From: Closterium sp. NIES-65
Taxonomy: Eukaryota; Streptophyta; Zygnematophyceae; Desmidiales; Closteriaceae
Direction: 5' to 3'
DNA length: 64,000 nucleotides
NCBI GenBank assembly: GCA_948144175.1
Contig: CANXME010002527.1
Coordinates: 124,001-188,000, forward strand
In this document: positions 8,436 through 57,400 of the stretch, one piece after another
Position numbering within the stretch: the stretch's first letter is position 1
Layout of the letters: each line of letters opens with the position of its first letter
Notes under the pieces: generated by a model
Databases searched by the model: none
Told to the model about the DNA's origin: nothing
What the model saw: only the letters and a program-made list of their open reading frames with translations
Made by a program: the position numbers and the translations under genes

Positions 8436-8900
8436 TTTGCGCTGCCCTCACAGGCGGCTTCGCGCCGCCCCTACCTGCGGCCTCGCGCCGCCCAGGCCCG
8501 TCGCCGCCCTTCCCGCGGCTTCGCGCCGCCTCTACCTGCGGCTTCGAGCCGCCCCGGCCCGTCGCCGCCCTTACCTGCGGCTTCGCGCCGCCCCGGCCCG
8601 TCGCCGACCTTACCTGCGGCTTCGCGCCGCCCTTGCACCGGCTCGTCGCCGCCCTTACCTACGGCACGTCGCCGCCCTACCTACGGCCCGTCGCCGCCTT
8701 TACCTACGGCTCGTCGCCGCCCTTACCTACGGCCCTCCGCCGACCTACCTGCGGCCCTACTCGCCGCCCTACCTGCGGCCACCCGCCAACCTACCTGTGG
8801 CGCACCCGCCGCCCTACCTGCGGCCACCCGCCGACCTACCTGCGGCGCACCCGCCGCCCTACACTTCGCGGCCCCGCCGCCCTGCTTTAGCGGCCCCGCC
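8436..8900 (+). repeat. copia-1 5' leader minisatellite
   Basis: GC-rich tandem repeats of the type CGCCGCCCTTACCTGCGGC between the PBS/hairpin and the coding region. The frame is open through it and encodes Arg/Pro/Ala low complexity; I regard it as untranslated leader. Confidence 0.75.
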
Positions 8901-9402
8901 GCCCTTCTGCTGCGGCCCCGCCGCCCTGCACCTGGGGCCCCCGCCAACCCGTCTGCTGCGGCCCTGCCACTCTCCTCTCCTGCCCGCCACCCGAGCCGCC
9001 GACCGCAGCACCACCCTGCAACGTGCAGCCGAGCAGCCCAGCAGCCGAGCCGCCCAGCAGCCGAGCGCCGAGCCGCCGAGCCGCCCAGCCGCCGACCCGC
9101 CCAACAGCCGAGCCGCCCTACTACCGAGCCGCCGGCGCCGCCGAGCTAGTGCCGAGTCACCCGAGCCGCCCGAGCCGCTCGAGCCGCCCGAGCCGCCCGA
9201 GCCGCCCGAGCTGCCCGAGCCATCCGAGCCGCCCGAGCCGCCCGAGCCGCCCGAGCCGCAGCGCCACCTCAGCCGCCCGAGCCGGCGGGTCGCCGAGCCG
9301 CCGAGCTGCAGTTGCTGCCGAGCAACCGTACCGCCGAGCCGCTGTGCCGCCGAGTCGCCGAGTCGCCGAGTCGCCGAGTCGTCGAGCCTACTCTTCCCAC
9401 CA

Positions 9403-22700: not shown

Positions 22701-22747
22701 CTCTGTTAGGCCTTGTGCCTACTGGGCCTCACTTGCTTACCTCTTGA
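16771..22747 (+). pseudogene. copia-2 gag-pol, one frameshift and two stop codons
   Basis: Starts MATPSVLTFD, the gag start shared with inner-3 and copia-4. Gag domain ~16.77-17.24 kb; a C-run at 17,231-17,243 causes a frameshift. The downstream frame is open from 17,135 to 22,747 except for TAA 17315 and TAG 19823 (CAG in sister copies). In order: gag C-terminus, long Gly-rich stretch (17.55-17.80 kb), LSPQQLREWY, zinc-like motif C-x13-C-x3-H-x4-C, protease LDSGASRSFF, GAG-pre-integrase LLWHHRMGHPS, integrase (MDVWG, HSDRGGEF, QQNGIAERR), AEPGG linker, RT (YVDDLVFA), RNase H (DNKATIA; ends HLLTS). All catalytic residues remain. Integration in cis is unlikely given the gag frameshift. Confidence 0.93.
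19860..20110 (+). repeat. copia-2 linker minisatellite (AEPGG units)
   Basis: Imperfect 15-bp units GGTGCTGAGCCTGGG between integrase and RT, as in the other copias. Confidence 0.88.
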
Positions 22748-31482: not shown

Positions 31483-31559
31483 GGCGACGACAGCGACGCA
31501 GTGCAAGCAGTAGGGAAAGAGCCGCAGTGGCAGTGGGACTGTGCTCACCAGGCAGGGCA

Positions 31560-37689: not shown

Positions 37690-38455
37690 TCCGGGCTCTC
37701 TCTCTTACCTCTGTCGACCGGCCCTTAGCCGCCCGTGCGCCGCCCGTTCAGGCCTCACGCCGCCAGCGCGCCGCCCTAGACGCTAGCGCGCCGCCCGTCC
37801 CGGCTCCGTGCAGCCCGCGCGCCGCCCTTAGCAGCCCGCGCGCCGCCCTAAGCAGCCCGCGCGCCGCCCTAAGCAGCCCGCGCGCCGCTCGCCGCCCCAG
37901 GCCGCCCACGCGCCGTCCGCGCGCCGCCCTTAGCCGCCCGCGCGCCGCCCGCCAGGCCCCAGGCCACCCACGCTCCGCCCGCGCGCCGCCCTTAAACGCC
38001 CACATGCCGCCCGTGCGCCGCCCTTAGCCGCCCGAAGCGCAGCCCGTGAGCCGCCTGTGAGCCGCCCGTGAGCCGCCCGTGCGCCGCCCGTAGCCGCCCG
38101 AAGCGCCGCCCTTGAGCCGCCCGTGAACCGCCCGTGAGCCGCCTGTGCGCCGCCCGTGAACCGCCCGTCCCGGCCCCAAGCCACCCGTGAGCCGCCCACC
38201 CCGGTCCCGCTCCCAGCCGCCCTCGCGCCACGCTGTCCCGGCCCTTCGACGCCCGAGCCGCCCGTGCCACCCGCGTCACCCGAGACGCCCGAGCCGCCCG
38301 TGCCACCTGTGTCACCCGAGCCGCCCGAGCCGCCTACGCAGCTGAGGAGCCGAGCTGCCCGAGCCACCTTTGCCGCCCGAGCCGCCCGAGCCGCCTGTAC
38401 CGCCGAGCGCCCGAGCCGCCCGAGCCGCCCGAGCCGCCCGAGCCGCCTGAGGAGC
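37690..38455 (+). repeat. copia-4 leader minisatellite
   Basis: CCGCCCGTGAGCCGCCC / GCGCGCCGCCC units, followed by CCGAGCCGCC repeats. Confidence 0.8.
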
Positions 38456-38620
38456 TGAGCTGCTGGTCCTGTGGGGCTGCTGTTGTTACTGGGCCGGCAG
38501 AGCTGCTATGTTACCGTATTGCTGTGCTGCTGAGCTGCCCGACCCGTCCTGTCTGGTGAGCACAGCTCCACTGCTACTGCGTACCCCTTCCCGCACTGCT
38601 TGCACTACTAGTCTGTCGTC

Positions 38621-39724: not shown

Positions 39725-39957
39725 TCAAGAGGAGAGCAAGTGAGGCAAGACAGGCACAAGACCCAGCTAGGTGCAGAAGCGCTGATGGTCACAAGGTGCG
39801 AGTGCCTTGGTGAACACATCAGCAGTGTTGGCCTCAGAGGCCACGTACGCAAGCCGCAACTGTCCACGCTGCTGTAGCTCACGAGCAAGGAAGTAGCGAA
39901 GAGCAATGTGCTTCGTTCTGTGCTCCAGACGCTGCTCTCGACACAAGGCCAGCATGG
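39725..39957 (-). pseudogene. copia-5 RNase H C-terminal part
   Basis: Continuation of the copia-5 pol beyond the gypsy insertion: KAMLALCREQRLEHRTKH..., ending with the HLLSS-type C-terminus and TGA at 39725. TAG at 39767 replaces CAG (FCT*LGLV). Confidence 0.88.
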
Positions 39958-39961
39958 CCTT

Positions 39962-40378
39962 TGTCACCGCATATGCAAGGGATGCATATGCAATAACAGT
40001 AGAGTGCGGTGCTGTGAAGCAGTATAGCAAATAGCTAAGAATGCATTGAGGTAGATAGATAAGAAGTAGTGTAGGAGGTGTAGCCAGTAGCGAAGTGTCG
40101 GTTGCAAAGGGGTGCAAAAAGGGGGAAATATGTGGGAGCGGTTGGGATGAAGGGGGAAAGGCACCGAAGGGCGAAATGTGGGATTCGAACAAATCCCAAC
40201 CTCGAGCCGCACATTGGAAATGTGCAAGCCGAGGTTGGGTAAGGTCACCCACGCCCACTCACTCGATGCCTATTGTTCGGTATTCTTTCATACTAGTGCA
40301 GAGCGGCTATCCTAGCTACTACACGCGGTGGCACAGCACTAAGAAGGAACCGGTGCGGTGGGGGAGTGATTACGTACA
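39962..40378 (+). repeat. Gypsy repeat A1 (left partial LTR)
   Basis: 417 bp. Contains a hairpin-rich, tRNA-like stretch (40,170-40,250) and the segment 40261-40283 that is complementary to the PBS. Confidence 0.93.
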
Positions 40379-40400
40379 TACCGAACAATAGGCATCGAGT
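40379..40400 (+). promoter_or_regulatory. Gypsy primer-binding site complementary to its own LTR
   Basis: Starts immediately after the A1 terminal CA. Bases 40378-40400 are the exact reverse complement (23/23) of 40261-40283 inside A1 (core CGATGCCTATTGTTCGG). It does not resemble the iMet-tRNA PBS of the copias. This suggests self-priming as known for Tf1 of fission yeast. Confidence 0.7.
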
Positions 40401-40407
40401 CGCAGGC

Positions 40408-43400
40408 ATGGATAAATATGAGCTGCGTTGGGATAGGGTGTTTAGTCGCCGGGAGGAGGAACGAGCACGAGGTGAGCCGTCACGCGAGCGCGGGCGATCT
40501 CTGGAGCGCTCGCCGCGAAGGCCGGCATTTCGCGCAGATAGAGTCCCCGTCGCTGGGGATCGACGGGCGGAAGGGAGGCCTAGCGTGGCAGCGGGTGGAG
40601 AAGGAGACGCCGCAAGCGCGGACGGCGACGTGTGGCGAAGAGGGCATGATCGCGGAGATGGATACGGGAGCGGAGACCGGCGCGCTGTGGGAGTGTTCCG
40701 CTCGCCGGAAGAGCACGGGCGCCGCCGTGATGAGAGGGGCCGTTGGCCGGGCGTCGAGCGATTCGACGCCAACCGAGGAGGGGAGGCCGCAGAAGAGGAA
40801 GAGGCAGAGGAGGACGCAGCGAACCTGGAACGGGCGGTCGAAGACGCCGACGGAGAAGATGACGGCGAGGAACCCGCGGCTAGGATCGGAAACGCCGAGC
40901 CGGAAGGGGCGTACGTTGCCGGGGGCGCAAGCCAGGCAGGGGCAGAAGGATCGCGGTCGGGACGGTCGGAATCACGCGACCACGACGCAAGCCGCCAGGA
41001 GGAGCATTACGCGGAGAGGTCACATCAGCAGGAGCGGCGGGACTGGGGCGTGCATGCCGGCGCTGTGGGGACGCAAGGAGAACGCGGCAAAAGGGAGGAA
41101 GAGGGACCGCGCGCGTCAGGGGAAGGATCGCGGCGCCGGGAGCGGCCTTCTGTTGACCCCCGCGCACTCGACTGGCGCCAGGCTCAAGGGGGCCGGGGCG
41201 AAGACGGCGAACGATCGCCGGACAGGCAGCTGATGCATAAGGGAGGATGGGAGGGCGAGCCACGCGCAGCCAGCCACCACTGGCGGCGGGAAGAAGGACG
41301 CGAGGAGGGGCCCAGCTCATCAGAGAGGCGCGGCCAGCGGCAAGAAGGGCGCGGCGGGGAGGCACGGACGTCAGGCCCGCAAGCGCAATGGGAAAGGAGG
41401 GTGAGCAGCGGGTTCCGCTCGCCTCTCGCCCGGCAGCAGCGGGGAAGAGAAGGCGGCGGAGATAGGCGCTCGCCCGGAGATCGTCGGCAGCAAGGAAGGG
41501 GAGAAGCATGGGAACCGTCGCCAGAGAAGCAGCGGCAGCGAGAGACGAGCACGGCGAGATGGAGAGAGACACGAGTCTCGCCGGCACGAACGCGAGGGCG
41601 TGCGTGGGAGGAGAGGGGCCCGAGAGAAAGGCACGGTGACTCGGGCTGGAATCGGCGGGAGAGCAGAGCTGGAGGGGGGAGCTTAGCATATGGCGCTGAG
41701 CGAGCCCGAGAGGCCAGGGAAGGCATGGAGAGGGCCAAGGAGAGAAGGATTGGGGAAGAGCGGCTGGAAGGGGCCAGGGAATCGCGGGGAGAAGGGTGGG
41801 GAAGTACAGCCAGCGCAACGCGGGTGGAAGTGCCGGCGAGGTTCTCGGGGGACCAAAGGGTGGGGCCGGCCCTCAAGAATTACTTGATGCAGGTGGGGAA
41901 CGTGAGATACCGCTGTGACAGGCAAGGCATGGACCCAATAGACTTCTTCTTGAGCCTGCCCAACACTCTGGAGGGAGAGGCGGAGACCCTGTACCGCATG
42001 AGGATGGACGAGCTGCTGTGGAGGGCAGGGAGGTACGGGGAGGATCCCACCGAGGCATTTCTGGAGCGGCTTCAGCGTCAATTCCCGGGACACACGGCGG
42101 AGCGCGTGAGGGAGTTTCAGGAGTTCAGGAGGGGACGGCCAGAATCCCTACTGACCTACTACAACCGACTGATAAACTTGGCGGAGGATGTGAAATGTTC
42201 GGACAGCAGCCTCCTCATCAGTAAGTTTCTTGGAGGCCTGGACGAAACACTGGGGGGAGGACTGAGGATGAAGGTGTACGAGTTAGGGGCGGATGCGGCA
42301 CTAGAGGAGGTGTTTGACCTGGCGGAAAGGGTGGAGCTGGCACAAAGGAGGTATGAGGTCTACCTGCCGAGGCCGACAGAGAAGAGCCGCAGACCGACAT
42401 GGGCGGCGGCTATGATACCAGAGGAGCGGGGGAGGGTGGACCCACACGGGGAAGAGAGAGCCGACGCGCGCACCTGCTACCGGTGTGGACAGATGGGGCA
42501 CCTCCGCAGAGAGTGCAAAAACTGTGATGGATGTGGGAAGCCCGGGCACCGGAAACGAGAATGTCCGGATGCGGCGAAGTGTGAAATCTGCGGGAAGAAG
42601 GGGCACGAGGCCAAAGAGTGTTACCAGCGGGAGGGAGGGACAAGGAGGAAACCAGAGGAGCTGCAGCGGCAGATCAGCAGGCTGCAGTCTCAACTGCAGG
42701 CCATGGGGTCAGGGTGGGGAGCGGAGGCGGGGATGTACGCCAGGGACGAGGAGGGAGAAGGGGTGGAGCCGGACGTGCAGTGTGCCCTCATGGCCTGGAG
42801 AGGCAGGGAACAGGTGGGGCTGCGTAGCGGGGGGAAGGATGGCAGGCAGGAGCATAGCCGGAAGCCACGTGAGCAGGGGTCCAGGCCAGACGCGCCAGGA
42901 GGAGAGAAGACCCCAGCCCGCCACCCGCAGGAAAGACTCGCGTGCCAGACCTCGGTGCTGCTCGTGGAAGCAGGAGCGGTGGAAGTGGGGGGGGTGAAGG
43001 AAAAAACGGCGATCATTGACACAGGAGCACAGAGCGTGATGCTGGGTAAGGGGATGGCCGAACGGTTGGGGCTGATGGCCCCTGAGAGGCACGTGGCGAA
43101 GGGGATGTTAGTCATGACAGCAGAGGGAGGGGAACCAAAGTGGATGCCGTGCACCCGGACCCCCATAGAGTTGACACTGCTGCCAGGAGGGGAGCATGAA
43201 ACAAGGATCAGGATGAAGTGCGGAATCTCGGAGTCCGAGGACTTTGATCTGCTGATGGGGACGGAATTGGTGTTCGCTGTAGGCATGAGCATATGTACCT
43301 GGATGGAGAAGGTGGAGTTCCGAACGAGATACTGGAAGAAGGAGGGACCATTGGGGCAGCTGCCAGTGCAATTTGTAAGGGTGGAGCCGAAGCGGGCCTA

Positions 43401-44598
43401 TCAGGTCGGAGCAGGAGGGGCACAAAAGGGGCAGAGAGGAGCAGCAGAGACCAGGGAGGGGCCCAGGATGAAACTAATGGACAAGCCGGGGCAGTATAGC
43501 GATTGGCAGCAGCCCATCCGGCTAGTAGAGTTGTTCGGAGGAATCGGGGCAGGGCTGGCGGCAGCAGTGAGGAGTGGGATTGCGGTGCAGCAGTGGGTCT
43601 ATGTGGAACTGGCACCACAGGTGAGAAGGATGGCTGAGCATCACGCGCGGAAGCTGAGAGCTGAGTTCCCGGATCTCCTGAGTGAGAAAGTAATTCAGGA
43701 AGCCATGAGCAGTACGGTGCACGATGTGAGTCAGATCACAGAGGAGCAGGTGGCCAGCTGGGGGCAGGTGGACCTGCTGGTGGCAGGATGGGAGTGTCAA
43801 GGGGTGTCATGGGCGGGAAAAGGGAAGGGAGGGGAGGACCCGAGGACGAAGCTGATGGACAACCTGTTCGACATCCTGGAGTGGCTGCAGGAGAGGCAGG
43901 GCAGAGTGGCCTACTTGCTGGAGAACCTGGATCTAGAAGGGGATTGTAGAGAGCCGATTCGGCTGGTGAGGGAGAGGATTGGCCGGCACGTGGGAAAAGG
44001 GATGAGCTGTGATGCAGCCAGGGCAGGGTCGTACGCTCACCGCCTCAAGATGTACTGGCAAAACGTGGTTCCTGTGCTGGATCTGCAGGAGGAAGCAGAG
44101 GGGATGAGGAGGGCTACAGGGAGGAGGGTGGTGGACATCCTGGAGCCGGGACGGACTCCCGCGCCAGTTTGTCAAAGAAGTTACAGCAGGCACTACCCGT
44201 GCAACCAGGTGGGGCAGGACAGGAGGGCTCTGCCCACCTTGGTTGCTTTTGCAGAGGCAGCAGGCTACAGGTGGGAAAAGGGGGAGCCCGGACCCGGGCT
44301 GATATATGACCACAAGCGGGGACGGTGGGAGGAACCGACGGCATTAGAGAGGGAGCTGGCTATGGGATATGGAGAAAACGTGACGGCAGCACCAGGGGTG
44401 AGCGAGGAAGACAGGAGGAGGGCAATGGGGAATGCCATGGATGGCTACATGATGAGGTGGCTGGTGCAGAGGATGTGGCGAGAGATGGTCTTGGGTGGGG
44501 GGCAAGAGGCAGATAAGGGGGCGGCAGCAGCAGCCCCACAAGGAGCATGGACCTGCCAGGAGGAGGAGGGAGAGAGTGGACAGTGGGGGAAGCGATGA
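40408..44598 (+). CDS. Gypsy ORF1: Gag - zinc knuckles - protease - C5 DNA methyltransferase
   Basis: 1,396 residues from ATG 40408 (MDKYELRW), 8 bases after the PBS. In order: Arg/Glu/Gly-rich disordered region ~15-470; capsid-like gag ~475-665 (ARFSGDQR... YYNRLINLAEDV); three CCHC knuckles ~689-740, all C-x2-C-x4-H-x4-C; aspartic protease, D-T-G-A at ~871; C5 methyltransferase ~1035-1370. The latter shows motif I LFGGIGAG (1042-1049), motif IV W-E-C1130-Q-G with the catalytic Cys but Glu for the usual Pro, motif VI E1172-N-L, a motif VIII-like HRLKMYWQN and a motif X-like GNAM near 1342. C5 methyltransferases methylate cytosine; capture by gypsy elements is known in charophytes. HRLKMYWQN recalls Dnmt3- or phage-type enzymes. 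Activity is untested, and the Glu in motif IV is a caution. Stop TGA overlaps the ORF2 start. Confidence 0.92.
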   Translation: MDKYELRWDRVFSRREEERARGEPSRERGRSLERSPRRPAFRADRVPVAGDRRAEGRPSVAAGGEGDAASADGDVWRRGHDRGDGYGSGDRRAVGVFRSPEEHGRRRDERGRWPGVERFDANRGGEAAEEEEAEEDAANLERAVEDADGEDDGEEPAARIGNAEPEGAYVAGGASQAGAEGSRSGRSESRDHDASRQEEHYAERSHQQERRDWGVHAGAVGTQGERGKREEEGPRASGEGSRRRERPSVDPRALDWRQAQGGRGEDGERSPDRQLMHKGGWEGEPRAASHHWRREEGREEGPSSSERRGQRQEGRGGEARTSGPQAQWERRVSSGFRSPLARQQRGREGGGDRRSPGDRRQQGRGEAWEPSPEKQRQRETSTARWRETRVSPARTRGRAWEERGPRERHGDSGWNRRESRAGGGSLAYGAERAREAREGMERAKERRIGEERLEGARESRGEGWGSTASATRVEVPARFSGDQRVGPALKNYLMQVGNVRYRCDRQGMDPIDFFLSLPNTLEGEAETLYRMRMDELLWRAGRYGEDPTEAFLERLQRQFPGHTAERVREFQEFRRGRPESLLTYYNRLINLAEDVKCSDSSLLISKFLGGLDETLGGGLRMKVYELGADAALEEVFDLAERVELAQRRYEVYLPRPTEKSRRPTWAAAMIPEERGRVDPHGEERADARTCYRCGQMGHLRRECKNCDGCGKPGHRKRECPDAAKCEICGKKGHEAKECYQREGGTRRKPEELQRQISRLQSQLQAMGSGWGAEAGMYARDEEGEGVEPDVQCALMAWRGREQVGLRSGGKDGRQEHSRKPREQGSRPDAPGGEKTPARHPQERLACQTSVLLVEAGAVEVGGVKEKTAIIDTGAQSVMLGKGMAERLGLMAPERHVAKGMLVMTAEGGEPKWMPCTRTPIELTLLPGGEHETRIRMKCGISESEDFDLLMGTELVFAVGMSICTWMEKVEFRTRYWKKEGPLGQLPVQFVRVEPKRAYQVGAGGAQKGQRGAAETREGPRMKLMDKPGQYSDWQQPIRLVELFGGIGAGLAAAVRSGIAVQQWVYVELAPQVRRMAEHHARKLRAEFPDLLSEKVIQEAMSSTVHDVSQITEEQVASWGQVDLLVAGWECQGVSWAGKGKGGEDPRTKLMDNLFDILEWLQERQGRVAYLLENLDLEGDCREPIRLVRERIGRHVGKGMSCDAARAGSYAHRLKMYWQNVVPVLDLQEEAEGMRRATGRRVVDILEPGRTPAPVCQRSYSRHYPCNQVGQDRRALPTLVAFAEAAGYRWEKGEPGPGLIYDHKRGRWEEPTALERELAMGYGENVTAAPGVSEEDRRRAMGNAMDGYMMRWLVQRMWREMVLGGGQEADKGAAAAAPQGAWTCQEEEGESGQWGKR

Positions 44599-47381
44599 GT
44601 GAAGAGGGAAGAGAAGCTATGCGGGGACTGCTGGCCAAGCACAGGAAGTGCTTTGCCTTCACACTGCAAGAACTGGGAAGGTGCAAAATGAAGGAGATGG
44701 AGCTGAAACTGAGCAGCACGGAGCCGGTGTTCCAACGGCGTAGGAAGATGCCGCACGGAGATGAAGAGATATGCAAGGAGAAGATTAAGGAGCTGTTGGC
44801 GGCCGGACTGATCCGGCGCTCAGAATCAGAATACGCCACACCAACAGTGGTGGCAGCGAGGAAGGACTTAACAGGAGAGATCCTGAGCAGGAGGATGTGC
44901 GGAGATTACCGAGCGCTCAACAAGATTACCGTGGCGGACAGGTACCCAATGCCGATGGCGGAAGAGATATTTGACAAGTTAGCAGAGGGGGTGTTCTTCA
45001 CGACGCTGGACCTGCGGCAGGGGTTCAATCAGATAAAAATCAGGGAGGAGGACGTTAGGAAGACGGCATTTCACGGGCCGGATGGGCTGTACGAGTGGCT
45101 TTACATGCCATTCGGGCTGAGGAACGCATCAGCAGTGTTTCAGAGAGTCATGGATGCAGTGCTGAGGGACGTAGAATGTGCAGCGTGCTACATAGATGAC
45201 GTGGTGATCTTCAGCACCTCCGAACAGCAGCACCTGCAAGATGTGGAGAAGACACTGGCAGCAATAGAAGCAGCGGGACTCACGTGTCACCCGAAGAAGT
45301 GTAGGTGGGGTGAGCAGACCGTTCAGTATCTGGGCTACGAGGTGAAGGGGGGGCAGATCGGGATCCAGCAAGCAAAGGTGGAGGTGCTGGATAGGCTGCG
45401 AGAATCAAAGGACAAGACAGGGCTGAGAGCGGTGTTGGGGTTTCTGAGTTACTACCGGCGATTTGTGCCCAACTTCAGCAGGCGGGCAGCGGTGTTGAAC
45501 GGACTGTTAAGGGAGGACAGGACATGGGAGTGGGGGGAAGCGCAGAAGGGGGCATTGCAGGACCTGATGGCGGCGGTGAAAACGGCAACCGTCTTGCAGC
45601 TGCCAGCAGCGGACCAACCCTTCACCCTCTACACCGACTGGAGCAGCCAAGGGATGGGCGGGATACTCTGCCAGGAGGTGGAAGGGGATGAGAAGGTGGT
45701 GGCCTACGCGAGTAGGAGCTGCAACTCGGCGGAGGCACAGTACAGCTCGTACACAGGGGAGGGACTAGCGGCAGTATGGGCTGTGGGGCACTTCAGGGTC
45801 TACTTGCAGGGGCGGGAGTTCACCCTGGTGACGGACCACCAGCCACTGACATGGCTGATGACGACACCAGGGTTAACAGGCAGGAATGCACGATGGGCAA
45901 TGAAGCTGCAGGAGTATGACTTCAAAATCAAGCACAGGCCAGGAAAAACCTTGCAGCATGTGGACGGCCTCTCCCGTAACCCCCCACCGCTAGAGCCAGC
46001 AGTGACCCTTGCGCTGCTGGCCAGACAGGTGGAGCTGAGCGGGGCCAGGAGAAGCAAGGGGCCGGCTGATATCTGGGAGGATGAGCAGGCTGTGAGATGG
46101 GTGAAGGGAGAGACAGGGGCAGACGAGGAGATGAGCGAGAGGGTGAGAGCAAGGGGGCACCACTACAGGTGGTACCAACAGCAGTTGCAGATACAGACCG
46201 AGGGTGGGTGGAAGCTGGTGCCGGCCCCAGGTGACAGGGAAGCAGTGATAAAGGAGGTGCACTCAAGGCTGGGGCACTTCGGGCATGAGAGGACAGTGCA
46301 GTTGCTGAAGACGGGCTGGTGGTGGGAGGGAATGCGCAGGCAGGTGCAGAAGTGGGTGGAGGGATGTGAGGCCTGCCAAAGGAGCCGAGCAAACCTGACC
46401 CAAGCCAAGGCCGAGCTGCAGTCCCTGCCCATCCGTGGGTTAGGCTTCAGATGGTCCTTGGACCTGGCGGGGGAACTGCCGCTGAGCCGGGGGGGGAAAC
46501 GGTACATAGTGCTCATGGTGGAGCACGTGAGCAAGTGGCTGGAGGTGAGGGCTATCCCTAGCAAGAGCTCAAGACATGTGGCAGCAGCATTCAAGGAGCA
46601 AGTAATATGCAGATTTGGGGCGTGTGCAGAGGTGCTCACCGATCAAGGCACAGAGTTTCAAGGGGAGTTCAGGGAGCTGTTAGAGGAAGCGGGAATCACC
46701 CACAGGCGCACCTCTCGCTATCACCCACAGAGTGATGGGCTGACCGAGCGCCTAGTGCAGACACTGAAGCGAGGGCTACGGGCATATGGGGAGAAGAGGA
46801 AGCGGGAATGGGACAATGAGCTACACTGGATTGCGGCAGGATATAGGTTTGGGAAGCAGGCAGCCCTGAGAGACCATTCACCCTACAGCCTTCTGTTTGG
46901 TTGTGAGCCGGTGCTACCTGTGGGGGCACCACGGGTCCTCACGGACACAGTGACAGCAGGCACCATAGACAACTGGGTGGCCTTGTCAGAGGCCAGAGCA
47001 AGGTACCTCCGAGTGATCATGCCAGCAGCGCTAGAAAACCTACATACGGCACAGCTGAGAGACGCCAGATGTTATGAGCAACGCCAGCAGCAGGGGATGT
47101 TGGGAAGGAGAGAGAAAAAGGGAGCAAGTGAGGGGCAGGAGGTGTACCTGAAAAGGGCAAAACAGGACACGCTGGACGTCGGGGTGGGGACCGAGAGGTG
47201 GAGGGTGAAGGAAGTTCGGCCCTCGGGTATTCTCGTGCTGGAGAACGAAAAGGGGGCACAGCTGAAGAAGCACCAGACCAACACGGCCCTGGTGAGGGGG
47301 AGCAAGCCTCAACAGGCTGGTCCTGTGACACGAGCTCGAGCTACCCAAGCACGGGCACAGGAGGGGGCAGTGAGTGACTGA
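44595..47381 (+). CDS. Gypsy ORF2: reverse transcriptase - RNase H - integrase
   Basis: 928 residues from ATG 44595 (MSEEGREAM), which overlaps the ORF1 stop as ATGA; the frame is also open back to ATG 44547 (944 residues), 52 bases into ORF1, so -1 frameshifting is an alternative, though I see no good slippery heptamer. RT: DYRALNKIT, TLDLRQGFNQI, catalytic Y-I-D-D 199-202. RNase H: YTDWSSQG with D348. Integrase: H/H near 556-566, C-E-A-C near 591, catalytic D623, D683, E718 (D-x34-E, one shorter than the usual 35). No chromodomain seen; the C-terminus is Arg/Gln/Ala-rich and ends inside repeat B1. The pol order RT-RH-INT places it in Ty3/gypsy. All catalytic residues are intact. Confidence 0.95.
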   Translation: MSEEGREAMRGLLAKHRKCFAFTLQELGRCKMKEMELKLSSTEPVFQRRRKMPHGDEEICKEKIKELLAAGLIRRSESEYATPTVVAARKDLTGEILSRRMCGDYRALNKITVADRYPMPMAEEIFDKLAEGVFFTTLDLRQGFNQIKIREEDVRKTAFHGPDGLYEWLYMPFGLRNASAVFQRVMDAVLRDVECAACYIDDVVIFSTSEQQHLQDVEKTLAAIEAAGLTCHPKKCRWGEQTVQYLGYEVKGGQIGIQQAKVEVLDRLRESKDKTGLRAVLGFLSYYRRFVPNFSRRAAVLNGLLREDRTWEWGEAQKGALQDLMAAVKTATVLQLPAADQPFTLYTDWSSQGMGGILCQEVEGDEKVVAYASRSCNSAEAQYSSYTGEGLAAVWAVGHFRVYLQGREFTLVTDHQPLTWLMTTPGLTGRNARWAMKLQEYDFKIKHRPGKTLQHVDGLSRNPPPLEPAVTLALLARQVELSGARRSKGPADIWEDEQAVRWVKGETGADEEMSERVRARGHHYRWYQQQLQIQTEGGWKLVPAPGDREAVIKEVHSRLGHFGHERTVQLLKTGWWWEGMRRQVQKWVEGCEACQRSRANLTQAKAELQSLPIRGLGFRWSLDLAGELPLSRGGKRYIVLMVEHVSKWLEVRAIPSKSSRHVAAAFKEQVICRFGACAEVLTDQGTEFQGEFRELLEEAGITHRRTSRYHPQSDGLTERLVQTLKRGLRAYGEKRKREWDNELHWIAAGYRFGKQAALRDHSPYSLLFGCEPVLPVGAPRVLTDTVTAGTIDNWVALSEARARYLRVIMPAALENLHTAQLRDARCYEQRQQQGMLGRREKKGASEGQEVYLKRAKQDTLDVGVGTERWRVKEVRPSGILVLENEKGAQLKKHQTNTALVRGSKPQQAGPVTRARATQARAQEGAVSD

Positions 47382-47464
47382 GGCAAGGCAGCACAGAGCA
47401 GGGAGGGTTGAAGAAGAACAACAGGAAGAAGAGCAAGTACTGATGAGGGTCACACACTCCGACA
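47371..47464 (+). repeat. Gypsy repeat B1
   Basis: 94 bp starting TGAGTGACTGAGG directly after the PPT, ending CTCCGACA. Together with GC and A2 it makes a canonical LTR. Confidence 0.93.
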
Positions 47465-47466
47465 GC

Positions 47467-47883
47467 TGTCACCGCATATGCAAGGGATGCATATGCAATA
47501 ACAGTAGAGTGCGGTGCTGTGAAGCAGTATAGCAAATAGCTAAGAATGCATTGAGGTAGATAGGTAAGAAGTAGTGTAGGAGGTGTAGCCAGTAGCGAAG
47601 TGTCGCTTGCAAAGGGGTGCAAAAAGGGGGAAATATGTGGGAGCGGTTGGGATGAAGGGGGAAAGGCACCGAAGGGCGAAATGTGGGATTCGAACAAATC
47701 CCAACCTCGAGCCGCACATTGGAAATGTGCAAGCCGAGGTTGGGTAAGGTCACCCACGCCCACTCACTCGATGCCTATTGTTCGGTATTCTTTCATACTA
47801 GTGCAGAGCGGCTATCCTAGCTACTACACGCGGTGGCACAGCACTAAGAAGGAACTGGTGCGGTGGGGGAGTGATTACGTACA
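47467..47883 (+). repeat. Gypsy repeat A2
   Basis: 417 bp, 3 differences from A1. It is joined to B1 through GACA-GC-TGTC, a 10-bp palindrome. Confidence 0.93.
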
Positions 47884-47885
47884 TG

Positions 47886-47979
47886 TGAGTGACTGAGGCA
47901 AGGCAGCACAGAGCAGGGAGGGTTGAAGAAGAACAACAGGAAGAAGAGCAAGTACTGATGAGGGTCACACACTCCGACA
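47886..47979 (+). repeat. Gypsy repeat B2 (right terminal)
   Basis: Identical to B1. It is separated from A2 by two extra bases (TG) and followed by TSD CCTT. Confidence 0.93.
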
Positions 47980-47983
47980 CCTT

Positions 47984-50900
47984 GTTGTCTACGTACAGCA
48001 CTGGAGGAGAACGAGGCGGCTCTCCAAGGTCAGTCAGCAGGTAGGTGAGCCAGCGAAGCTCCTGTGCAGCCTTGGCCCCTGCGTAGATCTCAGCCTCACA
48101 ACTCGAGCTGAGAACCGAAGACGAGCGAGTAGCCCGCCACGAGACAGAGCCGGAGCCAAGGCTGAAGGTGTAACCCTGTGACGACCGCTGCGTAGCCTGG
48201 TCGTCAGCCCAAGAAGCGTCCGCGTGACCTGTAAGTACCACTGGACTCCGCCCTCCAAGCACTAGCCCCATGCCCAACGTACTGCACAGGTAGCGCAATA
48301 CCCTCTTCGCTGCAGCCATGTGCTCTGGTCGGTGTCTCCCAAGAGCAACATAGCGTGCAAGAATGCTCAGAGGGTATGCAAGGTCAGGTCGTGTGCAGGT
48401 CATCAGGTACATGAGGCAGCCAACAAGCTCTGGGTACGGGCCACTCGACTCTACGGACTCATCCGAAGGCAGAGCTGAGAGCGAGTGGCTAGTAGACAGA
48501 GGAGTGGCCTGAGGCGAGGAGTACGTGAAGCCGAAGCGCTGAAGGACCTGCTGCACCATGTGTGACTGAGTCAAGGTAATGGTGCGGCGTGCTCTGTCCC
48601 GAGTGATCTGCAAGCCAAGGTAGCTGCGCAGTTCACCCAGGTCTGTGCACGTGTGTCTCTTCAGCAGCTCGGACTTCACGTAGGCGAGTCCAGCAGTGTC
48701 CGCTGTGGCAAAGACCAAGTCGTCGACGTACACGAGGATGTAGAACGGTGGCAGTGAAGTGTCGGTGCGCACAAACAACGACGGGTCAGCAGTAGAAGGA
48801 GCGAACCCAAGGGCCGCAAGTGTAGTCCTCAGTGTGTCGTGCCACTCACGTGGTGCCTGGCGGAGACCGTAGACTGGCCGTCGGAGGCTCCACTGGGTGC
48901 CAGGAGGGAAAGTCCCAGTGAAGCCAGGTGGACGGCGCAGCCAGATCTCCTCGTGCAGGCTCCCCTGCAAGAACGCAGTACTGAAGTCGAGAGAGTGAAG
49001 CTCGTAGTCGCGCTGAGCGGCTATGTGCAGCAGCACCCAAAGAGTGGTCATCTTCGGGGTGGGAGAGAAGGTCTGAAAGTAGTCAACTCCCTGCCGCTGG
49101 CTGAAGCCACGAGCGACGTACCGCGCCTTGAAGACAGGTGGAGAGCCCGGCGGCCGCTTCACCCTGAAGATCCACATGCCACTGACGATGTTCGCCCCAG
49201 GAGGGGGAACCGCATCAACGTAGGTGCCTGTGGACTTCCTGGAAGCCATCTCTGCATCCATAGCTGCCTGCCACTGAGAGGAGTAGGGACCCTCTACGGC
49301 CTCCGCGTAAGAGCGCGGAGTCGGGATGTCTAGTGCATCCGGGTCTCCCTCAGGAGCAAGCAGTACAGACGCGAGATGAGGTGAAGCAGCAGCCAGACAC
49401 TGGAATTCCTCCTGCCTGTCCTCTAGGACGTCCGTGCCAAGAGCACATTCACCCCCGACGGACAGAGGACAGACAGACGCAGACTCAGCAACAAGACTAG
49501 CAGCGTAGTCTAGACGACAGCGAGCAGCAAAGTCAACGAGCTCAGCGACAAGAGCAGACGCAGCAGCGGACTCAAAAGAGGGGTCAGTGACGACAGTAGC
49601 AAGCAGACGCGTGACAGTAGGACTGGCAGCACAAAGGGAGTCCGACTCTGGGTCGGTAAGCACAGGAAGGGAGGACTCAGGAGGAGAAGGCAAAAGGGCA
49701 CGCAAAGGAGCAGTGGACGGACGCAGAGATATCCGGTGCGTGCCAGGGACAGGAGGAGGACGCGGACGCGAACCACGACCACTAGCGCGGGCAGCACGAA
49801 CAGGCAACGCGGGACGAGACGCAGGCTCACGACGCTCAGCAAGACCTCTAGTAGGACCAGTGTAAGGAGAGGGAGCAGGCAGTGGGGAGGTAGGCTCCAA
49901 CAGTGACTGCGACTGGACAGGCTGTGGACACTCCACCGGAGGAGAAAGACCAAGAACCTGCTGCAGAAGCGGAACGAAGTACGGTCGAGGCCGCGCGGCA
50001 GCTCCAGACTCAGCAGGGACAGCACCAGCACCCTCAGCGACAGCACCAGCGCCACCAACACCTCCAGCGGCAGGACCTCCAGCAGCACCAGCAGCAGAAC
50101 CACCGTCAGGACAGACAGCAGCAGACTCAGCACCAACGCCCTCAGCAGCCCCAGCTCCAGTAGGACCCGCAAGCGTAGCACCTCCGGGACCGGCGGCACC
50201 AGTACCCTCGACGGTCGAAGAAGCTCCAGCTCCAGCAGTACGCCTCCAGCGGCGAGCAAACCACTCGCGCAGCTCCTGTGGAGAGAGGGGCTCCCGCCGA
50301 GACGCAGCACCAGGAGAAACCCCAGGCTCAGCGGCTCCAGACGTAGCACCCCCAGGCTCAGCAGCCCCAGACTCAGCACCCCCAGGCTCAGCAGCTCCAG
50401 ACTCAGCACCCCCACGCTCACCAGCTCCAGCTCCAGTAGGACCCGCAGGCCCAGCAGCTCCGGGACCGGCAGCACCAGCACCCTCAGCAGTCAAAGGAGC
50501 TCCAGCTCCAGCAGCACGCCTCCAGCGGCGAGCAAACCACTCGCGCAGCTCCTGTGGAGAGAGCGGCTCCCGCCGAGACGGAGAAACCGGAGGGCCCCCA
50601 GGTCCAGCAGTCGCAGGCTCCGCACCTCCAGGCTCAGCACCCTGAGGCTTAGCAGCTCCTGACGTAGCACCTCCCGGCTCAGCACCCCCAGCAGCAGCAC
50701 CCCCAAGCTCAGCACCCCCCGGCCTCGCACCCCCAGACTCTGCACCCGCAGCAGGACCAGACTCAGCGGCAACCTCGACTGGCTCGACTGTGTCTACCTG
50801 GGACACACCTGAAGGGGCAGGAACCTAAGGGGGGAGGGGGTCTACCGGGGGGGGAACTGGCACCAGGAAGTCCGGTGGGGGGGGGAGGGAAGGAGTACGG

Positions 50901-52945
50901 TAGGGGAAGAGGCGGTAGAAGGGGACTGACTCGTCGAACGTGACGTCCTGGGAGGACAGAACACGACGAGAGGAGGGGTGGTAGAACTGCCACCCTGGAG
51001 CGTCAGGGGGGAAGCCAAGGAAGACACAGGGAGCAGCACGGGGGGACAGCTTGTCCGCAGACAAGTCGCGGACAAACGCCCGAGATCCCCAGACACGGAA
51101 CGCAGACGCATCGCCGACCTTCCCCGTCCACAGTAACACTGGGGACATATCGGGCCGAGAGACCCTGGGGTGAAGGTTGAGCTGATGCGCCGCGTAGCGA
51201 ACCGCAAACGGCCACAGAAAATGGGGGGCAGCCGCATGCATCATGGACGTACGAGCGACATCCATGACCATGCCAATGCGGCGCTCAGCAATCCCATTTT
51301 GTTGTGGAGAGTCCGGAAGCGTAAAGGTCTGGCGGATCCCCTGTGCACGACAGTAGTCTCGCAGAAGGCGAGAGGAGAACTCCCCACCTCGGTCAGAATG
51401 CAGACGCAGAACAGGAAAGTCCGAGCCGAAGCTCCTCCTGAGCTGGAGACGAGCCTCGCGGATCCAGTCGATCAGCACCTCAGTGACAGCACCCTTGCTG
51501 CGCAAGGGGAAGACTGTGGTGTAACGCGAGTAGTCGTCAACCACCAACAGGAAGTAGCGCTCGTGACCCTGCCCACGGACGGGGGCCGGGCCCCACACGT
51601 CCATGTGAAGTGTCTGCAGAGGAGCCTCTGTCGGGGGAAACTGGGAGTAGTGAGGAGCAGCCCTGAGGCGCCCCTCGACACAGGGGACACAGGAAGGTCC
51701 TGGTCCCGAAGGAAGGGGAGGGAGAGACTGGGGAAGACCAGAGACAAGGACACGGGAAGCCATGCCCCAAAGACGGGGCAAGGAGGGGTGGCCAAGACGG
51801 TGGTGCCACAGGAGAGTCTCGTGAGACAAGAGGCGACACGAGCAGGGGGCAGACTCAGGACCAGACCTGGACGCAGCAGCAAACACCTGACCTGACGCTG
51901 CTACCTGATCGGACGCAGGGACAGGAGGAGACTCAGTGGTCAGGGTGTAGAGGCTCGACCCCGGCCGACGCGAGAACGTGGCCAGGTGCCGGCCTGTGCG
52001 TGCGTCCGTGCAGTGGGTCACCCGCTGACTCGCAGGAGTGAACTGGTGAACCCCCGCATCCTACAGGTCTGCACCACTCACCAAGTTCGTCGAGAACGAG
52101 GGGAGGTACAGGCCAGACAGGGTGCCCGAGGGGGCAGCCGGACACGGGAGGACAGTGGAAAAGTGAGCGAGGACAGGACCCCCAGAGGGGTCAGCCAGGG
52201 AGACTGCAACAGGCCGATAAAGCGGCGTGAGTGTGGTGCGGTACCGAAAGAAGGAGCGAGAAGCCCCAGAGTCAAGTGTAAAGGTGAGGGAGGCCGAAGC
52301 CAACGTGGTACCTGAGAGCGCAGCCTCACCCGCACCTGAGGAAGCAGACTCACTGGCACCTAGAGCAGCAGCCGCACTTGTACCTGGAGCAGGAGACTCA
52401 CTAGTACCCAGAGCAGCTGCAGCCTCACCAGTAGCTAGAGCAGCAGGTCCTATACCCGGGTCAGGCGGTACGCACAGGTGACCGGCACGGTCAGCACTAG
52501 TAGGCAATGCATACATGGCAGTGAGAATAGCATCATAGTCAAGAGCAAATATATCTACCCTCTGCCTAAGCAACTCCACCCAGTCGGGGAGCTCAGCCTC
52601 GTCGCCAAACACGGTACGCCAGGCGTCGCTCAGACGGGCGAAGCAGCGGGACTGTGTATGACTAGGTGTCCCACAAGGCTGACCAGTCCGAGCACCAGTG
52701 AGAATCACGTAAGAGCAGCGAACAGAACTGAGAGACCCTCCACTCTGAGCGTACCACTCACGAAGCTGCTGAGGCGTGAGAGACGCACGGGGGGGTCGCG
52801 GGAGCTGCATCTGGCCGCCACCAGTAGTAGAAGCAGCAGGAGTGGTAGCAGTAGTAGCGCCACCACCCCTACAGCCCCAACCAGCGTACCACTCACGCAG
52901 CTGCTGGGGCGTGAGGGACTCACGCAGACGTCGATGGGGCCGCAT
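47984..52945 (-). pseudogene. copia-5 gag-pol (capsid-less), with TAG stops
   Basis: One frame read from ATG 52945 (MRPHRRLRESLTPQQLREWY). In order: two copies of SLTPQQLREWYA; Cys/His motif C-x13-C-x4-H-x4-C; protease LDSGASRSFF; GAG-pre-integrase HHRLGHPS; integrase (MDVWG, HSDRGGEF, QQNGIAERR); linker with two REPLSPQELREWFARRW copies; RT (YVDDLVFA near 48,725); start of RNase H, cut by the gypsy at 47,984. Stops: TAG 52061 and TAG 50825, both CAG in sisters. The UBN2 gag domain is absent. The closest relative here is copia-1 (shared QMQL..PRASLTPQQ). Confidence 0.92.
50300..50760 (-). repeat. copia-5 linker minisatellite
   Basis: Two blocks of 15-bp AEPGG-type units (50,310-50,440 and 50,590-50,760) separated by a copy of the SPQELREWF segment. 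Confidence 0.85.
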
Positions 52946-53399: not shown

Positions 53400-54160
53400 G
53401 GGGGGGGGGGGGGGGAGGCGGCTCGGGCGGCTCGGGCGGCTCAGGCGGCTCGGGCAGCTCGGGCAGTCAGCGGCACAGGCGGCTCGGGCGGCTCGGCTCC
53501 TCAGCTGCGCAGACGGCTCAGGCGGCTCAGGCTGCACGGCGGCTAACGAGCGGCGTGGGGGGGGCAGGACGGCGGCGTGCAGCAGGGACGGGCGGCGCAC
53601 GGGCGGTGTGAGGCCGGGACGGGCGCGCGCGGGCGGCTAGGGGCCGGGACGGGCGCGCGCGGGTGGCTAGGGGCCGGGACGGGCGGCGCGCGGGCGGCTA
53701 GGGGCCTGAACAGGCGGCGCGCGAGCGGCTAGGGGCCGGGACGGGCGGCGCGCGGGCGGGTAGGGGCCTGAACGGGCGGCACGCGAGCGGCTAGGGGCCG
53801 GGACGGGCGGCGCGAGGGCGGCTAGGGGCCTGAACGAACGGCGCGCGAGCGGCTAGGGGCCGGGACAGGCGGCGCGCGGGCGGCTAGGGGCCTGAACAGG
53901 CGGCGCGCGAGCGGCTAGGGGCCGGGACGGGCGGCGCGAGGGCGGCTAGGGGCCTGAACGAACGGCGCGCGAGCAGCTAGGGGCCGGGACAGGCGGCGCG
54001 CGGGCGGCTAGGGGCCTGAACGGGCGGCGCGCGAGCGGCTAGGGGCCGGGACGGGCGGCGCGCGGGCGGCTAAGGGCCGGGACAGGCGGCGCGCGGGCGG
54101 CTAGGGGCCGGGACAGGCGGCGCGCGGGCGGCTAGGGGCCTGCAGGGCAGGCCGAAAAAG
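53400..54160 (-). repeat. copia-5 leader minisatellite
   Basis: CGGCTCGGGCGG units, then ~31-bp units GGCGGCGCGCGGGCGGCTAG plus GGGCCGGGACG (53,600-54,140). A G run at ~53,387-53,414 adjoins a block shared with outer-3. Confidence 0.85.
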
Positions 54161-54260
54161 TGAGAGCGAGGGCCCGGAGCGCGCACCGGGCAGAAAAAAA
54201 AAAGTTTAAAACGTGGTGGGCCCTAAGCACAGTTCCCACGGGGGAACCTGCTCGATACCA

Positions 54261-54396
54261 TGTGGAGAATAGAGCGAGAATGAATGAACTATGAGTGAAG
54301 TGAGTACAAATAGCAAAACCCTAATTGGGTTGTACCCCCTATGGTATACCCCACTGTAGCCTACACAACAGCATAAGCTACATATATGTTCTGACA
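54261..54396 (-). repeat. copia-5 5' LTR
   Basis: 136 bp, identical to 39381-39516; followed by TSD CGGGA and resumption of copia-4. Confidence 0.95.
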
Positions 54397-54401
54397 CGGG
54401 A

Positions 54402-57400
54402 GACGCCGCTCTGGCAAGGGCAAGGGGGGCAAGGGAGCGGGTGGGGCCAGCGAGGGCGGTGGAGGTGGAGGTGGAGGCGGCGGAGGGAGTGGGGGTGGCG
54501 GTGGAGGGGGTGGCAAGGGGTAGGGGTGCTAGTGGCGGCAGTGGAGGCGGGGGTAGCGGCAGCGGTGGTGGTGGGAGCGGAGGTGGCGGAGGCGGCGGCG
54601 GTGGAGGCGGAGGCGGAGGCGGTGGAGGCGGAGGCGGGGGTGGCGGTGGTGGAGGTGGTCGGAGTGGCACTTCGCAGCGGAGCAGCACTGGGGGTGGTCA
54701 GCGCCAGCAGCAGCAGCAGCCTTCTCGCGACATCCCCACCCCTCAGCAGCTCCGTGAGTGGTACACGCAGCGTCAGCGTGGTGGGGGTTTTGGTCCCTGC
54801 ACCTACGTTCTTCGCACTGGCGACCGTGCTGGAGAGCAGTGTGGGGGTACCCACACCGCCCAGGGCTGCTTTGGCCGCGTGACGGACGCTTGGCGCCAGC
54901 AGTTCCCGGAGGCCGCGGAGATCCCCCGCTGGGGAGAGCTGTCTAGGGCTGGTGTAGCTATCTTTGATCTTGACTTTGATGCTATCCTTGCTGCCATGTA
55001 TGCTGTGACCATTAGTGATGAGGGTGACTGTTACCGGTGTTTCCCGCCCGACCCGGGCATTAGTACTGCTGCTCTAGGTGCTAGCGAGGCTTCTGCTCTA
55101 GGTGCCAGTGCGTCTGTGTTCTCAAGTACTGGTGAGGCTGCTCTCTCAGGTACTGGTGATGCTGCTCTCTCAGGTACTCCTGAGTCTGCGCTCTCAGGTA
55201 CTGCTTCGGCTTCGGCCTCCCACACCTTCACCCTCGACGCTGGAGCGTCTCGCTCCTTCTTTCGGGACCGCACCACCCTCACGCCGCTTAGTCGGCCGGT
55301 TGCGGTGTCCCTGGCTGACCCCTCTGGGGGTCCTGTTCTGTCTCGCTTCTCCACAGTCCTCCCGTGTCCGGCGGCTCCCTCTGGCACCCTGTCTGGTCTC
55401 TACCTCCCCTTGTTCTCTACGAACTTGGTGAGTGGTGCTGACCTACAGGATGCGGAAGTCCACCAGTTCACCCCTGCTCGTCAGCGAGTGACGCACTGCA
55501 CAGAGGCTAGCACAGGTCGTCACCTGGCTACCTTTACACGTCAGCCAGGGTCGAGCCTGTACACACTGACCACTGCTTCTCCTCGAGTTGCTGAGTCTGG
55601 TAGGGTCCCCTCGTCAGGTCAGGTGTTTGCTACACCGTCCAGGTCCGGTCCTGGGTCTGCCCCCTGTTCGTGTCGTCGCCTGTCTCACGAGACTCTCCTC
55701 TGGCACCACCGCCTGGGTCACCCCTCTCTACTTCGGCTCAGAGGCATGGCCTCTCGTCTTCTTGTGTCTGGTCTTCCCCGGTCCCTCCCTCCCCTTCCTC
55801 AGGGCCCTGGCCCTGCCTGTGTCCCCTGTGTCGAGGGGCGCCAGCGTGCTGCCCCTCACTCCTCCCAGTTTCCTCCGACAGAGGCTCCGTTGCAGACGCT
55901 TCACATGGATGTGTGGGGCCCTGCCCGCGTCCGTAGACTCGGTCACGAGCGCTACTTCCTGTTGGTGGTTGACGACTACTCGCGTTACACCTTAGTCTTT
56001 CCCTTGCGCAGCAAGGGTGATGTCACTGAGGTGCTGATCGACTGGATCCGCGCAGCTCTTCTCAAGCTCAGGCATAGCTTTGGCTTTGACTTTCCTGTGT
56101 TGCGTCTGCACTCGGACAGAGGCGGAGAGTTCTCCTCTTGCCTTCTGCGTGCCTACTGTCGTGCGCGAGGCATCCGTCAGACCTTCACACTTCCGGACTC
56201 ACCGCAGCAAAATGGGATTGCAGAGCGCCGCATTGGCATGGTCATGGACGTCGCTCGTACGTCCATGATGCATGCGGCTGCCCCCCATTTTCCGTGGCCG
56301 TTTGCGGTCAGGTACGCGGCACATCAGATCAACCTCCACCCCAGGGTCTCCAGGCCGGAGACCTCCCCAGCCCTGCTGTGGACGGGGAAGGTTGGCGATG
56401 CGTCGGCGTTCAGGGTCTGGGGATCTCGGGCGTTTGTCTGCGACTTGTTTGCGGACAAGCTGTTCCCTCGCGCTGCTCCCTGCGTCTTCCTAGGGTTCCT
56501 ACCCAACGCCCCTGGGTGGCAGTTCTACCACCCCACCTCTCGCCGTGTTCTGTCCTCCCAGGACGTCACGTTCGACGAGTCGGTACCCTACTACCGCCTC
56601 TTCCCCTACCGCACTTCGTCCCTCCCCCCACCCCCGCTCTTCTTGGTACCAGGTCCCCCCCCGGTCGACCCCCTACCCCCTCAGGGTCCTGCCCCTTCAG
56701 GTGTGTCCCACGTAGACGCGGTCGAGCCTGTCGAGGTCAAGGTGACTCTGGTGCTGCTGTGGGTGCTGAGCCTGGGGGTGCTGAGCCTGGGGGTGCCGAG
56801 CCTGGGGGTGCAAAGCCTAGGGGTACTGAGACTGGAGGTGCTTCGCCCGGAGCTTCTCCGGGTGCTTCGTCTCGCCGAGAGCCACTCTCCCCGCAGGAGT
56901 TGCGTGAGTGGTTTGCCCGGCGTGCTGCTGGTGCTGGAGGTTCTTCGGCTGCTGGAGGTTCCCGGGGGTGCTCGTACTGGGAGTACTGGAGCTGCTGGGC
57001 CTGCGGGTTCTACTGGTGCTGGTGCTGCTGAGCGTGTTGGCGCTGAGACTACTGCTGGCGGTCTAGCTGGCAATGCTCCTGGTGCTGCTGGAGGTTTTGG
57101 AGCTACAGGAGGTGCTACTGGAGGTGCCGCTGGAGGTGCTACGGGGGGCTCAGGAGCTACTGGAGGTGCTGCTGGAGGTGCTACTGGAGGTTCTGGAGCT
57201 GCTGGGGGTACTGGTGCTGTCACTGCTGTTTCTGGCGTCGCCTCGCGGCCCAGACCGTACTTCGTTCCCCTCCTGCAGCAGGTTCTTGGTCTTACACCTT
57301 CTCCTAGTCCTTCTCCTCCTCCCTTAGAGGGTTCACAGCCTGTCCAGTCAGAGTCACAGCTACAGCCTGCCTCCCCTTTGCCTGCTCCTTCTCCCTATGC

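Follow-up and report, generated by a model that had tools for sequence, protein, structure and literature searches.

A DNMT3-type cytosine methyltransferase domain predicted in the polyprotein of a Ty3/gypsy retrotransposon with DIRS-like split repeats

A retrotransposon occupies positions 39962-47979 of the window, by which we mean the whole 64,000-nucleotide stretch of Closterium sp. NIES-65 DNA analysed here. It begins with TGTCAC, ends with CCGACA and has CCTT on each flank. The insertion lies in a Ty1/copia element, within its RNase H part; two broken minus-strand frames of that element flank it. The following features were identified:

39958-39961, no strand: target-site duplication CCTT, left copy
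39962-40379, plus strand: repeat A1, 418 nt, begins TGTCAC, 3/418 differences from A2
40408-42468, plus strand: gag, an Arg/Glu/Ser-rich N-terminal region of ~470 aa and a capsid-like part, read from the translation
42469-42630 (end approximate), plus strand: zinc knuckles, three CCHC stretches (PF00098, E 1.9e-10)
42979-43128, plus strand: aspartic protease core (PF13650, E 8.9e-5, 23.6 bits, slightly below the cut-off of 24.3)
43501-44505, plus strand: DNMT3-type C5-cytosine methyltransferase (MTase) domain, assigned from profiles, PDB matches and fold, with the catalytic Cys in GWECQG at 43786-43803
44506-44600, plus strand: linker between MTase and reverse transcriptase (RT), site of the frameshift in the window copy
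44892-45344, plus strand: RT (PF00078, E 8.2e-31; Ty3 is the best PDB match)
45612-45917, plus strand: RNase H (PF17917, E 1.5e-32)
46236-46727, plus strand: integrase, zinc-binding domain (PF17921, E 1.1e-17) and DDE core, rve (PF00665, E 1.5e-14)
47360-47369, plus strand: polypurine tract GGAGGGGGCA, immediately 5' of B1, read from the sequence; GGAGGGGGC also occurs in L058, L059 and L060, full-length elements of three other families
47370-47464, plus strand: repeat B1, 95 nt, ends CCGACA, identical to B2
47465-47466, plus strand: GC spacer separating B1 from A2; the GACA-GC-TGTC junction is a perfect palindrome, in 4/4 separate insertions
47467-47884, plus strand: repeat A2, 418 nt, from repeat comparison
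47885-47979, plus strand: repeat B2, 95 nt, from repeat comparison; its CCGACA is the element end
47980-47983, no strand: target-site duplication CCTT, right copy

The first open reading frame, ORF1 (40366-44598; GTG start, first ATG at 40408), encodes zinc knuckles, then the aspartic protease and then the MTase. The initial annotation had read ORF1 as running past the protease into a C5-MTase with its motifs in order, and had placed this domain between protease and RT of a Ty3/gypsy carrier. These readings were borne out. The position of the MTase follows from the Pfam domain order and from an uninterrupted 2379-aa frame on a second contig, L057. Ty3 Gag-Pol is the best PDB match (3.2e-80), and the order gag-PR-RT-RNaseH-IN, the Ty3-type RT and the DDE integrase are those of Ty3/gypsy elements. 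Pfam searches of ORF1 and ORF2 returned no gag match and no phage-integrase match indicative of a tyrosine recombinase; the zinc-binding and rve domains of an integrase were found instead. No further DNMT3-associated domain was seen among the Pfam matches of the element.

The MTase domain ends near 44505 and is followed by linker to the end of ORF1, whose stop at 44598 is the product of a frameshift between MTase and RT in the window copy. In the close family, 29/29 other loci aligned here are without the shift. One of them, L057 on contig C2203, is the same insertion at the same site; aligned with the window over 9.9 kb it shows 0 mismatches and 6 gap openings, and it reads through as a single frame. 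A programmed frameshift between ORF1 and ORF2 was ruled out on these grounds, as the other 29 loci are without the shift and L057 differs by gaps alone. Because this same-site copy has one frame and no mismatches, the split in the window is probably technical, that is, a sequencing or assembly indel. The natural product would then be one Gag-PR-MTase-RT-RNaseH-IN polyprotein.

The repeats refine the Ty3/gypsy assignment. Retrotransposons of the PAT/DIRS type carry split direct repeats in the order A1-coding-B1-A2-B2. The window copy has A1, the coding region, the polypurine tract, B1, GC, A2 and B2, in place of two LTRs. The same A-coding-B-A-B order, GC spacer and GACA-GC-TGTC palindrome were found in L058, L059 and L060, which are flanked by perfect 4-bp duplications (CGTG, TTGG and TGAA). 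TG...CA ends with a 4-bp target duplication are thus present in all four separate insertions, window included. Split direct repeats, as in DIRS/PAT elements, are present, and two complete terminal LTRs, as in Ty3/gypsy elements, are absent in 4/4; a plain two-LTR element was ruled out by the repeat map. The repeat order is that of PAT/DIRS elements, but the present element is without a tyrosine recombinase and has target-site duplications. The repeat arrangement together with its ends and duplications shows DIRS-like split repeats combined with DDE-type integration. The A and B repeats differ at 3/513, 1/465, 9/566 and 27/843 positions across the four insertions; since such differences are few, some copies are recent. 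A joined-end intermediate, circular or tandem, may be opened by the integrase at the palindromic B-GC-A junction. The 2-nt spacer of the palindrome would suggest a cut with a 2-nt stagger, and such a cut could produce the observed TG...CA ends.

Within the region 43501-44598, where the initial annotation had called a C5-MTase and proposed a Pfam profile search, PF00145 matched above its cut-off (E 1.7e-6, 28.1 bits, cut-off 22). TIGR00675 matched with E 4.4e-10 and 39.7 bits, below that model's cut-off of 100.65. A phmmer search of the PDB with the single window sequence found DNMT3A (E 6.3e-5). With a profile of 20 genomic copies, 20/20 of which match PF00145 at the E limit used, DNMT3A reached 3.1e-15 (59 bits), DRM 9e-9 (37.7 bits), HhaI 6e-7 (31.8 bits) and DNMT2 2e-3 (20 bits). 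As a control, a phage MTase query ranked HhaI (100 bits) above DNMT3 (88 bits). In an unrooted maximum-likelihood tree of 29 sequences, 12 elements and DNMT3A were split from part of HhaI and 15 phages with 97% ultrafast bootstrap, a subfamily placement in which eukaryotes are sampled by PDB chains. The motifs I, IV, VI, VIII, IX and X are in canonical order, and the rearranged (DRM) order is absent in the element MTase.

An AlphaFold2 model of the domain had a mean pLDDT of 76.5 and a pTM of 0.80. Means of ten-residue blocks were 80-97 over residues 1-100, and the catalytic loop and the target-recognition part were weaker. The model leans on phage MTases, since its input was the window protein aligned with 48 of them. 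The best 50 of 181 PDB entries matching the model (E <= 0.001) were all DNMT3-family, the best at 1e-13 and with a TM-score of at most 0.76 by target length. The listed entries are DNMT3A, 3B or 3C, with DNMT3L present in many of the structures. A missing SAM-binding fold, which the initial annotation had named as evidence against its call, was not seen in this predicted structure. The catalytic domain of human DNMT3A/DNMT3B is the best PDB match by both sequence and fold, with the same motif order and an AHRxRxYW-type motif VIII, at 24-33% identity over the aligned core columns (12 elements). The element MTases have WEC and are fused to Gag-Pol, whereas the human enzymes have PC. By these comparisons the element MTase is of DNMT3 type rather than bacterial type.

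The motifs lie at 43531 (LFGGIG), 43786 (GWECQG), 43915 (LLENLD), 44035 (AHRLKMYWQN) and 44425 (MGNAM), in that order. A census of 80 loci gave 70 near full-length domains, 12 of them with stops; the 58 stop-free domains represent 54 distinct sequences including the window. The residue preceding the catalytic Cys was Glu in 54/54, and the Pro of the PC motif was not found. The substitution had already been read from the window, as had a Dnmt3/phage-like motif VIII, whose Dnmt3-like character agrees with the residue census and with the profile: the element ranks DNMT3 over HhaI, the reverse of the phage MTase. Since Glu is present throughout, the WEC variant is family-wide and no lesion of the window copy. 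The catalytic Cys (motif IV) was kept in 52/54 sequences, the Glu of motif VI in 54/54, and the His and Arg of motif VIII in 54/54 and 53/54, respectively; LFGGIG of motif I was nearly invariant. The Asn of motif VI was present in 50/54 and replaced by His in 4/54, and His was also found in 3/3 further loci. The retained Cys, motif VI Glu and motif VIII Arg, in a domain under selection, argue that Glu for Pro probably tunes the active site instead of abolishing catalysis.

Three genome searches listed at least 123, at least 112 (one short fragment having been removed from 113) and, with the phage MTase as query, at least 127 MTase places. Merging gave 301 distinct places among the matches listed, a count that is inflated by duplicate contigs and includes a host exon (L047) and, at C170:1360319 with the same score, probably its duplicate. 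Of the 127 places listed with the phage query, 61 were shared with the other two lists and 66 were not. RT was scored at 150 places among 11,611 candidates. Three RT places from outside the MTase lists were read, and all three carry an open MTase frame, so more MTase places exist than were listed.

RT lies downstream of the MTase in ten lineages. Trees of the two domains have four clades in common (support 0.99-1.0), and pairwise identities of MTase and RT are correlated (Pearson r 0.91, Spearman 0.56; 45 non-independent pairs). These data indicate that the MTase is co-inherited with RT in several deep lineages. The deeper branching order of the MTase tree differs from that of the RT tree, so some domain exchange is possible.

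Omega among recent copies was 0.281 for the MTase (23/29 loci), 0.281 for the protease region (17/29) and 0.236 for the start of RT (23/29). This set leaves out loci that contain stops or are out of frame, as well as duplicate sequences; the 29 loci include duplicate contigs and are not all independent insertions. Within the window clade, MTase dN was 0.147-0.178, with dS at 1.17, 2.15 or saturated, and RT dN was 0.035-0.066, so RT is more conserved than the MTase. Between two families, identity was 74% for the MTase, 75% for the protease, 87% for RT, and 59% and 53% for the linkers flanking the MTase. By these values the MTase is under purifying selection. Its faster evolution than RT across families appears to count against a methylating role.

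The host genome comprises 874 Mb in 2400 contigs and contains two DNMT1-RFD matches; an ADD_DNMT3 search gave no match in the genome, nor any in its controls. The exon at L047 is chromomethylase-like; its best PDB sequences are 9mvy, 7ubu and 4fsx (with 4ft2 and 4ft4) at 2e-33, followed by a DNMT1 chain at 9e-14. We take 4fsx, 4ft2 and 4ft4 to be the maize chromomethylase ZMET2. Chromomethylases first appear in charophytes, according to PMC6453930, and the exon thus points to a streptophyte as the likely host. C-to-T singletons in 30 aligned loci of the element were found at 52/367 CG and 78/633 CHG sites, and at fewer CHH sites (72/1382). Inserted copies therefore look, from their substitutions, methylated in the manner of plants. 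Such an excess of CG and CHG over CHH resembles host MET1/CMT-type methylation and so needs no enzyme from the element.

The initial annotation had correctly pointed to retrotransposon DNMTs in dinoflagellates and Klebsormidium as precedent. According to de Mendoza 2018 (PMC5890265), KnitGypsy-Dnmt3 of Klebsormidium nitens is an LTR Gypsy element whose Pol frame includes a Dnmt3, with Gypsy domains, DIRS-like repeats and Ka/Ks < 0.2. That paper also gives the DIRS repeat order. The combination of Gypsy, DIRS-like repeats and Dnmt3 is thus already known from that element. The same source reports that KnitGypsy-Dnmt3 gave no methylation in yeast, an outcome its authors call inconclusive, and that the DNMT of a Symbiodinium DIRS element methylates CG there. 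Methylation of cDNA was proposed by de Mendoza et al. for DIRS elements. PMC12344493 cites de Mendoza 2018 for streptophytes and dinoflagellates and names the LTR type as Copia. Among the matches listed in a literature search of titles and abstract starts, no Gypsy element with a DNMT was found besides that of PMC5890265.

With KnitGypsy-Dnmt3, as described there, the present element shares the Gypsy domain set, the Dnmt3-type MTase in the Pol frame, the DIRS-like repeats, purifying selection on the MTase and a streptophyte host. It differs in having Glu instead of Pro beside the catalytic Cys, to judge from the statement on KnitGypsy-Dnmt3 that key functional residues are conserved, and in its many copies, K. 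nitens being given fewer than Symbiodinium. The host is a different one, and TG...CA ends, 4-bp duplications and the palindromic junction are documented here beyond that description. SymbioDIRS-Dnmt3 of Symbiodinium likewise has a DNMT3-type MTase in Pol and A-coding-B-A-B repeats, but it has a tyrosine recombinase, whereas the present element has a DDE integrase and a Ty3-type RT. The initial annotation had left separate capture and a diverged relative side by side. Because the odd build is shared, we favour the latter: compared by description of their build, the present element and KnitGypsy-Dnmt3 likely share descent. New are the further host of 874 Mb with a chromomethylase-like exon, the MTase places, ~300 of them listed, that fall into several deep lineages, the family-wide Pro to Glu change beside the catalytic Cys and, in recent copies, an MTase omega similar to those of protease and RT.

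The MTase most likely serves to methylate newly made DNA of the element itself, a role to which we give about an even chance. The polyprotein would be cut by its own protease, and the MTase would be packaged together with RT and integrase. It could then methylate cytosines of fresh element DNA before or at integration. A new copy might thereby resemble heterochromatic or gene-body DNA of the host, or be protected against defences that recognise DNA lacking methylation.

Alternatively, the domain might be a DNMT3 fold with weak catalysis or none, kept for binding DNA or protein, for example to hold cDNA in the particle, to pair with a host DNMT or to steer integration. DNMT3L, which acts without catalysis, is a model for such a role. 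The exchange of Pro for Glu in every distinct sequence and of motif VI Asn for His, the latter in a lineage rich in long open frames, would both count against methylation and fit this explanation, as does the inconclusive yeast result with KnitGypsy-Dnmt3 (PMC5890265). In a purely structural domain the nucleophile would be expected to drift, yet Cys, motif VI Glu, LFGGIG and the motif VIII His-Arg are kept or nearly invariant. We regard a non-catalytic function as unlikely, though as second in probability to methylation of the element's DNA.

Less probable still is that the substrate is RNA or an RNA:DNA hybrid, met during packaging or reverse transcription, and not finished DNA. The polyprotein contains the MTase next to RT, and RNA methylation was raised by de Mendoza et al. 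for a LINE-type case (PMC5890265). The closest relatives are, however, the DNA-methylating DNMT3s (59 bits), and the tRNA-methylating DNMT2 scores only 20 bits.

It is very unlikely that the enzyme acts on the host, countering or redirecting silencing through altered chromatin methylation. Its high copy number (301 distinct places among the matches listed) and the DNMT1-type and chromomethylase-like genes of the host would suit such a role, but DNA methylation in plants normally promotes silencing, and the mutations of the copies at CG and CHG sites look like those of silenced DNA. Equally improbable is that the MTase was acquired recently from phages or bacteria and is not of DNMT3 type: tblastn matches in 260 phage records (23.5-31.2% identity among the 30 listed) and a PHROG 116 score of 59.7 bits point that way, but the origin is disfavoured by the ranking of DNMT3A over HhaI, by the tree, which puts the element MTase with DNMT3A, and by tblastn of 30 viral and 22 GTDB stretches matching conserved-peptide patterns, 0 of which encode a relative.

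A further reading is speculative and rather doubtful. The element MTases may form a Glu-Cys, rather than Pro-Cys, class of DNMT3 that evolved in retrotransposons and is still catalytic with an altered active site. Its substrate might be single-stranded or hybrid DNA while reverse transcription is under way. The element itself would start from a circular or tandem form, opened at the palindromic internal junction, and insert by means of its DDE integrase.

Retrotransposons are the usual targets of DNA methylation. A further large genome now has a gypsy lineage that retained a DNMT3-type enzyme through deep divergence, and the K. nitens case of 2018 looks less like a curiosity than like a strategy of long standing. 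With its many copies and its WEC variant, the family provides material for testing activity and substrate of such enzymes. The clean ends (TG...CA), the duplications of 4 bp and the palindromic junction demonstrate LTR-like integration by an element with split repeats. Insertion from a circular or tandem form, if true, would set its replication apart from that of ordinary LTR elements.

The methyltransferase element is inserted in a Ty1/copia element (RVT_2, rve), nested within the copia RNase H region, and the copia reading frame is broken where it sits. Much of the window is occupied by additional copia-type ORFs. The features are as follows:

39767-40258 and 47798-50806 (minus strand), 50825-52021 (minus strand): interrupted Ty1/copia frame (RVT_2, rve)
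40408-41820: start of gag in the inserted element, ~470 residues, Arg/Glu/Ser-rich
8437-11223, 17807-22744, 25579-31548 and 54441-57788: copia-type ORFs (rve, gag_pre-integrs, RVT_2)
53531-54266 and 37777-38471: a pair of tandem repeat arrays, both G+C-rich

The Arg/Glu/Ser-rich gag start is poorly conserved, with 40% identity between families. The two arrays are in part reverse-complementary to each other; one has a 31-bp spacing and the other is built of units of roughly 9 to 11 bp. A search of the whole 64-kb window against Rfam at the gathering threshold gave no matches.

A second contig (locus L057, G000:C2203:6265-16165) also carries this insertion in the identical position; its 9.9-kb alignment with the window has no mismatches and 6 gap openings. 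Duplicate or allelic contigs with indel differences between them are retained in the assembly, and element copy counts are therefore inflated.

Methyltransferase sequences of the host were also observed. Locus L047 (G000:C2390:13393-14893) is a host exon, chromomethylase-like and with a canonical PPC motif. DNMT1-RFD matches were found at L079 and L080.

Among the 54 distinct stop-free methyltransferase sequences compared, two (L065 and L067) lack the catalytic Cys, carrying Phe and Tyr; these are probably lone lesions or inactive copies. In the lineage comprising L058, L074, L075, L076 and L246-L248, the E-N of motif VI is replaced by E-H. Among the matches listed, open frames of 2456-2491 aa occur at many places in the L058 lineage, and its E-H is a second deviation from the canonical active site.
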